From assembly GCF_041821045.1 (NCBI RefSeq), contig NZ_JBGUAW010000001.1:124001-188000 (forward strand): a stretch of 64,000 nt of DNA. Reading direction: 5' to 3'. This stretch comes from Thiohalorhabdus sp. Cl-TMA. GTDB taxonomy: Bacteria; Pseudomonadota; Gammaproteobacteria; Thiohalorhabdales; Thiohalorhabdaceae. Position numbers and translations under genes: made by a program. The notes beneath the pieces were generated by a model, which made no database searches, was not told the origin of the DNA, and saw nothing but the letters and a program-made list of their open reading frames with translations. This document shows, in pieces, positions 53,323 to 54,008 of this stretch; position 1 is the stretch's first letter, and each line of letters begins with the position of its first letter.

Positions 53323-53691
53323 TCAGCCGCTGGAAACCGTATCGTAGCCCAGGTTGCTGGAGGTGCACTTTCCGGTGCCGAAATCGGCATCCTTTTGAAT
53401 GCTGCCACCACCGGTATCCCCGAAGTATGCAGCGCTCCCACCCTCATGGCAGGAGGTCACGGCGATATCGCTGGCACCGACATTAGAAGCGGTGCCGTCC
53501 TCGACTTTCAGGATTACCCCTGAGGATACCTGAATATCCACGCTCGCCCCGCTACGCAGGTTGCTAAGGGTCGAGGTGGTGATTCCAGTTTTGGAAGTGC
53601 TCCCGCTCGTGCCATCGATGGTAGTAGCGGCGTTTGCCACGAGGGGCGAACCCAGGGCCAGAGGAAGAGCGAAGGCTAGTTTCTTATTCAT
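53323..53691 (-). CDS. secreted partner of the short pilin, PilA-C/Spc-like
   Basis: A 122-residue protein with a classical signal peptide (MNKKLAFALPLALGSPLVANA) and a mature part of about 100 residues rich in Ser, Thr, Gly and beta-strand patterns. VDIQVSSG, then SDIAVTSCHEGGSAAYFG, recalls the V-x-V-x-Y then Y-x-V-x-T-x-H-x-x-G core of PilA-C-like globular pilin domains. Two cysteines could form a disulfide. It lies 44 nt downstream of the short pilin gene, in the same order as Geobacter pilA-N/pilA-C. AGGAG precedes the start. Homology to PilA-C is inferred from pattern and context. Confidence 0.7.
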   Translation of the reverse strand: MNKKLAFALPLALGSPLVANAATTIDGTSGSTSKTGITTSTLSNLRSGASVDIQVSSGVILKVEDGTASNVGASDIAVTSCHEGGSAAYFGDTGGGSIQKDADFGTGKCTSSNLGYDTVSSG

Positions 53692-53735
53692 CTTTGTTCT
53701 CCTAGTGATCGATCAGTGGCGGCGTAGGGAAAGCC

Positions 53736-53930
53736 TTACATGGCCGTCACAAGCGAGGTGATGGCGTTACGCGCATCGCTCTGCGCCGCGGAGTTGTTCG
53801 CGCTCTCGCGATACTGCGCGAACTGCGGGATGGCGATGGCGGCGAGGATGCCGATGATGGCCACCACGATCATCAGCTCGATGAGGGTGAAGCCCTTTTC
53901 GCCCTTCTTGGCGGTGAGCTTTTTGAGCAT
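53736..53930 (-). CDS. very short type IV pilin, PilA-N-like
   Basis: A 64-residue prepilin. A 13-residue basic leader ends KKGEKG, and cleavage gives FTLIELMIVVAIIGILAAIA with the invariant Glu5. The mature protein has only 51 residues and ends soon after the helix (IPQFAQYRESANNSAAQSDA), so the globular C-terminal domain of normal pilins is missing. The sequence is closest to Geobacter PilA-N, including IPQF and SAAxSDxRN. Aromatic residues in the mature form are F1, F24 and Y27 only. Expressed from a sigma-54 promoter, with the partner protein downstream. Start has GGAGGA upstream. Confidence 0.93.
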   Translation of the reverse strand: MLKKLTAKKGEKGFTLIELMIVVAIIGILAAIAIPQFAQYRESANNSAAQSDARNAITSLVTAM

Positions 53931-53992
53931 TGGTGCTCCTCCTGTGGGGTTTGTCCGGTATCCGGTGGGCCGTGGCCCGCGAGGCTGGAATA

Positions 53993-54008
53993 AGCAATTG
54001 ATGTGCCA
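53993..54008 (-). promoter_or_regulatory. sigma-54 promoter of the pilin unit
   Basis: On the minus strand the sequence reads TGGCACATCAATTGCT, matching the -24/-12 consensus TGGCAC-N5-TTGCW. GG and GC are ten bases apart as required. It is 63 nt upstream of the short pilin start. PilR, an NtrC-type activator, is encoded at 40.0-41.4 kb. Confidence 0.85.

Follow-up and report, generated by a model that had tools for sequence, protein, structure and literature searches.

A probable two-chain type IVa major pilin in a Thiohalorhabdus pilus cluster

Results

A short prepilin gene and an exported partner

The window analysed here, a stretch of 64 kb of the Thiohalorhabdus genome, carries two small neighbouring genes on its reverse strand, which the original prediction had read as a Geobacter-type split pilin. 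The first, pilA-N (53736..53930, -), encodes a short type IVa prepilin of 64 aa (51 mature; Pfam N_methyl, 1.2e-10), whose leader and mature parts read MLKKLTAKKGEKG^FTLIELMIVVAIIGILAAIAIPQFAQYRESANNSAAQSDARNAITSLVTAM. A type III leader (G^F, E5) is followed by the N-terminal helix only, and the length falls within the ~50-65 mature residues expected of a split pilin. On this ORF we could confirm the 51-residue mature chain with IPQF and SAAxSDxRN that had been claimed, the second motif being SAAQSDARN. The next gene, pilA-C (53323..53691, -), follows on the same strand after 44 bp and encodes a Sec-signal partner of 122 aa, assigned as a detached pilin head from profile, geopilin-head and Foldseek matches. 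Its N-terminus has a lysine start and a hydrophobic stretch running to ...LVANA, and ~100 mature residues remain, 32/100 of them Ser or Thr, in agreement with the predicted signal-peptide protein of about 100 mature residues directly downstream of the pilin.

A sigma-54 (-24/-12) promoter element, TGGCACATCAATTGC (53994..54008, -), lies 63 bp upstream of where pilA-N translation starts; it is a perfect match and the sole exact one in the 64 kb window, where 0.16 were expected. Its 5' edge coincides with 54008, the end of the region to which the original prediction referred. Upstream of pilA-N in related loci, the element was recovered with ≤2 mismatches in 44 of 48 cases, against 1 in shuffled controls. 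Behind pilA-C, between this gene and a convergent sulfotransferase gene, we found a rho-independent terminator with a 12-bp stem and then a T run (53275..53302, -; -24.4 kcal/mol, z -3.5). The promoter element, the pair and the strong terminator therefore point, on sequence alone, to a compact two-gene transcription unit.

The convergent gene (49239-53273, +) encodes a 1344-aa protein with tandem TPR and sulfotransferase-like halves. It appears to be a stable neighbour, since a fragment from a congener (G002, L002) has the 3' end of this gene at the same convergent site.

The pair belongs to the pilus cluster of the genome

Past the pair and the convergent TPR/sulfotransferase gene, the order is permease, PilG-like, ATPase, Wzy_C, aroE, pilC, pilS, pilR, pilD. 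The ABC-2 type permease (PilI-like; 48447..49301, -; Pfam ABC2_membrane_2, 2.9e-7) is 31-47% identical to the permeases that directly follow the pair in four other genomes. The PilG-like accessory protein (47590..48450, -) had no match in Pfam or NCBIfam and was recognised by its position and by 30-34% identity to its positional counterparts in four other genomes. The cassette is completed by an ABC ATPase (PilH-like; 46637..47581, -; ABC_tran, 5e-28), which has a homologue in 46 of 51 loci.

Further on lie the genes of the T4aP platform protein pilC (42978..44213, -; Pfam T2SSF, 1.4e-72), a pilS-type histidine kinase (41367..42968, -; HisKA and HATPase_c), a pilR-type sigma-54 response regulator (40015..41883, -; Sigma54_activat, 5.6e-73, and Response_reg) and the prepilin peptidase pilD (39188..40018, -; Peptidase_A24, 1.8e-21; A24_N_bact, 3e-33). 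PilM (302 bits) and PilQ (526 bits) are encoded ~7-12 kb beyond the left edge of the window, and the genome also has PilB-like ATPases. Because pilC, pilS, pilR and pilD place the pair inside a pilus cluster of the genome itself, it represents a resident pilin locus and no stray gene. The earlier description of a locus with slmA, zapD and ubiH was thus incomplete, as it left out these pilus genes.

Between the ATPase gene and aroE, the window encodes a Wzy_C protein resembling O-antigen ligases and O-oligosaccharyltransferases (45088..46731, -; Wzy_C, 3.8e-16), a possible pilin glycosylation enzyme whose match to TfpM is weak (7e-9) and below the cut-off. A Wzy_C/TfpM-like O-oligosaccharyltransferase accompanies the split pilin in the genus, standing after the ATPase in the window; in one congener (G001) the homologue (L041:1639-3063, -) is placed directly behind pilA-C, between it and the permease. 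Taken with the Ser/Thr-rich head, this protein suggests that the pili may be O-glycosylated.

Elsewhere, at L133:4778-7069 (G000 C10), we observed a PilB-like ATPase that carries a response-regulator domain at its C-terminus; the genes behind it resemble CheW, PilJ and ChpA of a pilus chemosensory system.

PilA-N resembles the Geobacter helix chain

The best PDB matches of PilA-N are Geobacter chains of Geopilin domain 1 (9egp_A, 2e-19; 7tgg_A, 2e-18; 2m7g/6vk9, 8e-16), and the next protein follows at 1.6e-10. As the top solved matches are all Geobacter PilA-N chains, the likeness originally proposed holds. The C-terminus stops ~10 residues short of the Geobacter chain end, leaving no space for a globular head.

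A link from aromatic content to pilin conductivity is a disputed hypothesis in the literature. PilA-N is no aromatic-rich pilin of the Geobacter type (the proposed e-pili), with 3 aromatics in its 51 mature residues (F1, F24 and Y27) and Asn at the position of Geobacter Tyr32. Since the Geobacter aromatics proposed to confer conductivity are mostly absent, we make no claim of electron transfer for the pair.

The partner matches solved and fused pilin heads

Used as a single sequence, the partner matched nothing in Pfam, NCBIfam or the PDB, and a direct genome scan with it returned no relative; its homology therefore had to be sought with profiles. With a profile of 9 partners, the best PDB match was 9egp_B, the 'Geopilin domain 2' chain of the Geobacter metallireducens type IV pilus (E 0.004). 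A profile of 50 natural partners again found this PilA-C chain, at E 3e-6, with the runner-up at 0.03. When the 9-row profile was confined to the mature part, the PilA-C match was lost from the PDB search and unrelated chains appeared above E 0.2. This loss, together with an unclear 50-row mature result, indicates that the signal peptide contributes part of the E of 3e-6, and it was the reason for making larger alignments and shuffle tests. Against mature 9egp_B, the mature 14-row profile scored 19.0 bits (best of 2000 chain shuffles, 11.3) and the mature 50-row profile 15.6 bits, a value exceeded by 1 of 2000 shuffles, which reached 16.9.

AlphaFold gave a weak model of the partner (mean pLDDT 58), with four strands in residues 59-101. 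Searched with Foldseek against 350,542 PDB chains, it nevertheless ranked the three solved PilA-C chains on top (7tgg_a, 6vk9_1, 9egp_B; E 0.1-0.23), followed in fourth place by a Thermus type IV pilin; with E-values of 0.1 to 1.1 over these hits, the ranking alone is informative. An in-frame read-through pair from G173, taken as a stand-in for the heterodimer, folded badly in its model (mean pLDDT 54) and gave no match.

A bridge to full-length pilins came from the cassette permease: among 399 sampled genomes of the phylum, it turned up in another class, under the family code f198. The loci of its three strong matches there have split pilins with the order permease-PilG-ATPase, and those of the five weaker matches that were opened have full-length geopilin-type pilins beside an ATPase-permease-PilG set; one ABC cassette type adjoins both the split and the fused form. 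The mature partner profile matched the heads of the full-length geopilins (those of f198 and one from G078) over 55 columns at E 1.8e-5, with a score of 35.1 compared with 13.5 for the best of 100 column shuffles and 7.7 for the reversed profile. These heads, in turn, match each of the three PilA-C chains in the PDB (9egp_B, 7tgg_a and 6vk9_D, at 1.8e-5, 0.006 and 0.096). As the partner profile matches the fused heads and these heads match solved PilA-C, we conclude from the comparisons that the partner is a PilA-C homologue, the detached head of a pilin. The profile search that the original prediction had proposed for the 122-residue protein thus brought up no unrelated family, and both family profile and model led to solved PilA-C.

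In four of the f198 loci with fused geopilins (L149, L150, L151, L152), a second full-length pilin-like gene lies downstream of the ATPase-permease-PilG set.

The partner might instead chaperone or stabilise the short pilin in the periplasm and stay outside the filament, as in the Spc idea once put forward for GSU1497. Its own Sec signal and its immediate linkage to the pilin gene fit such a role, which would equally explain the loss of PilA reported for G. sulfurreducens without GSU1497 (PMC5174107). However, full-length pilins within the same cassette type have a head domain homologous to the partner, and the Geobacter homologues of the partner are part of solved filaments (6vk9, 9egp). It also diverges fast, like a surface head: 14 partners are 15-37% identical to that of the window, whereas the pilin counterpart retains 61-89%. 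We therefore consider a chaperone improbable.

The short pilin is likely the major type IVa pilin

A full-length pilA elsewhere in the genome had been named in the original prediction as grounds for rejecting the split pilin. We looked for one with a pilin query and found no full-length T4a major pilin; since the same query detects ordinary pilins at ~1e-10 to 1e-12 in a class-wide search, a normal pilA would have shown. The remaining pilin-like genes fall into an MSHA-like, a T2SS and a PilY1/minor-pilin-like cluster, as classed by their neighbours and by sequence reading in selected genome regions, with an MshE-type c-di-GMP motif for the MSHA-like one. Among them, the MSHA-like pilin on C12 was classed by reading only; it is a type IV pilin of full length and might build a second pilus.

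The presence of these pilins, the MSHA-like one among them, would suit a scheme in which the pair builds a secondary or specialised pilus and the main type IVa pilus is made from another pilin. We think this improbable: the pair lies with pilC, pilS, pilR and pilD and has a PilR-type promoter, the other pilins are in clusters resembling those of MSHA, T2SS and PilY1/minor pilins, and in the Pseudomonas relatives the cassette adjoins pilB. Because no full-length T4a major pilin was found and the T4aP machinery is present in the genome, the short pilin is likely the major T4aP pilin.

The cassette occurs in many beta- and gamma-proteobacteria

In relatives the pair is followed by the ABC permease, and a search of named genomes with this permease yielded 44 loci. 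In all 44, a pilin with 51-54 mature residues stands upstream of the permease and a signal-peptide partner lies 11-35 bp behind a short pilin, so that the survey proposed with the original prediction returned the gene pair at every named locus. The unit in each comprises short pilin, partner and the ABC permease/PilG-like/ATPase set, often adjoining pilB/pilC. The genera represented include Pseudomonas, Stutzerimonas, Atopomonas, Thiohalophilus, Thiohalomonas, Saccharospirillum, Thiobacillus, Thauera, Pseudothauera, Deefgea, Chitinolyticbacter, Lampropedia and Brachymonas. Of 274 genomes sampled evenly across the class, 7 have the pair, and each of the three family genomes conserves it. In 34 of 51 loci, a PilC homologue lies close to the cassette. 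Examples from Stutzerimonas and Pseudomonas show the pair pointing away from pilB(CD), genes that were recognised by sequence. This position beside pilB(CD) is the usual pilA site in Pseudomonas.

The same distribution disposes of a degraded pilA, an ordinary gene broken by a stop or frameshift into two remnant ORFs: although the lengths of the two parts sum to an ordinary pilin, the second ORF has its own start and signal peptide, and dozens of species share the split, with a pilin that stays at 51-54 residues throughout. This leaves a degraded gene a negligible probability.

In a quick tree of the permeases (SH-aLRT support only), split and fused cassettes are separated with a support of 97, and the split cassettes of f198 fall inside a beta/gamma-proteobacterial clade, with a support of 100 for the larger clade and 86 for the nearer group. 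Such a placement suggests movement of the cassette from lineage to lineage. Of the two options first offered for finding the pair here, transfer or an overlooked wider distribution, the latter is the better one, given the many beta/gamma-proteobacteria and the second class. The permease tree makes transfer of the cassette plausible but shows none into the Thiohalorhabdus genome itself. In genomes sampled from outside the Desulfobacterota, a transfer from Geobacter into this genome found no specific support, the pair and the same small upstream gene being present in all three congeners.

Discussion

Considering these results, the pair is very probably a split type IVa major pilin consisting of a PilA-N helix and a separately made PilA-C head. 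The case for a PilA-N/PilA-C pair outside Geobacter is supported by the PilA-C homology seen by profile and model, with no unrelated family and no full-length competitor found.

For regulation, heterodimer, filament and the role of the ABC set, we infer the following course. PilS/PilR with sigma-54 would turn on pilA-N and pilA-C, as the promoter and the genes indicate. PilD would remove the PilA-N leader, and PilB/PilC would insert the helix into the filament. PilA-C, a globular beta-sheet head exported by Sec as a separate protein, may dock on the C-terminal (upper) half of the helix, the two chains making one subunit as they do in Geobacter filaments. The permease/PilG-like/ATPase set might assist the pilin across or out of the inner membrane, probably as PilGHI does in Myxococcus.

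The closest known system is PilA-N/PilA-C of Geobacter (GSU1496/GSU1497; geopilin domains 1/2; 6vk9, 7tgg, 9egp), which likewise has a helix-only pilin, an adjacent Sec-exported head and the T4aP machinery, and whose two chains are similar in sequence and fold. Unlike Geobacter, the window comes from another class, its head is too diverged for single-sequence searches, its pilin has 3 aromatics in 51 residues with Asn at Tyr32, and an ABC cassette lies 4 kb from the pair (directly adjacent in relatives). The fused geopilins of Pelobacter carbinolicus (PMC3543383) and of f198 (L149-L153) have the same helix and head domains, and those of f198 the ATPase-permease-PilG neighbours. They differ in being one gene instead of two and in the order ATPase-permease-PilG as against permease-PilG-ATPase. 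In Myxococcus xanthus, PilG/PilH/PilI also comprise an ABC ATPase, an ABC-2 permease and an accessory protein with T4aP genes (PMC3724824, PMC6060248), and they are described as essential for pilin translocation across the inner membrane (PMC3724824); PilA of this species, in contrast, is one large chain. Likened by domain types and position, the ABC set of the cassette is probably equivalent to PilGHI.

PMC3543383 and PMC5174107 describe the split pilins of Geobacteraceae and the fused ones of Pelobacter. The latter paper (2016) also reports truncated pilins outside Desulfuromonadales, in Pseudomonas, Thermithiobacillus, Neisseriaceae and Accumulibacter. These share the short pilin with our loci; the cassette is not described in the sections consulted, and GSU1497-like partners are examined in Geobacter only. 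We found no description of the partner or cassette in Pseudomonas or other such bacteria in a literature search of mostly open-access papers. Short pilins in Pseudomonas, Thermithiobacillus and Neisseriaceae are therefore already known, and the partner and cassette there may be new.

We lean slightly towards a broader proposal, in which the short pilin, its detached head and a dedicated ABC exporter form a mobile operon under RpoN control. This two-chain pilin operon would have repeatedly taken the place of pilA by pilBCD in Pseudomonas, Stutzerimonas and other beta/gamma-proteobacteria, and would also have spread to a second class. The major pilin of many supposedly one-chain species would then be two proteins, the head being fast-evolving and interchangeable.

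So far, split pilins have been discussed almost solely for Geobacter and linked to extracellular electron transfer. The low-aromatic pair in the ordinary pilus clusters of bacteria such as Stutzerimonas, Thauera and Thiobacillus speaks for splitting as a general structural solution and against a nanowire adaptation. The Geobacter arrangement would thus be no peculiarity of metal-reducers, as dozens of bacteria, many of them Pseudomonas relatives, share the operon, a distribution likely to surprise specialists in Pseudomonas pili. Co-assembly of the two chains and handling of the head by the ABC set can now be tested in easily handled strains. Annotation that names the short pilin alone 'PilA' may have overlooked half of the subunit.

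P. stutzeri has tandem pilin genes, pilAI and pilAII, which affect natural transformation. Our literature search, mostly of open-access papers, found nothing on P. stutzeri pilAII. Among our loci, a second short pilin gene that has no partner of its own is present in L083, L084, L086, L087, L097, L099, L103, L105, L109, L113, L120, L077 and L119, usually between partner and permease; its product may modulate assembly, for which pilAI/pilAII offer a comparison.

Lastly, the draft genome of one congener (G002) contains two short pilin and partner copies with different heads, on contigs C134 and C197 (L002, L034). The second head is cut by the contig end, and both copies are preceded by a homologue of the small gene at 54122-54358 of the window.
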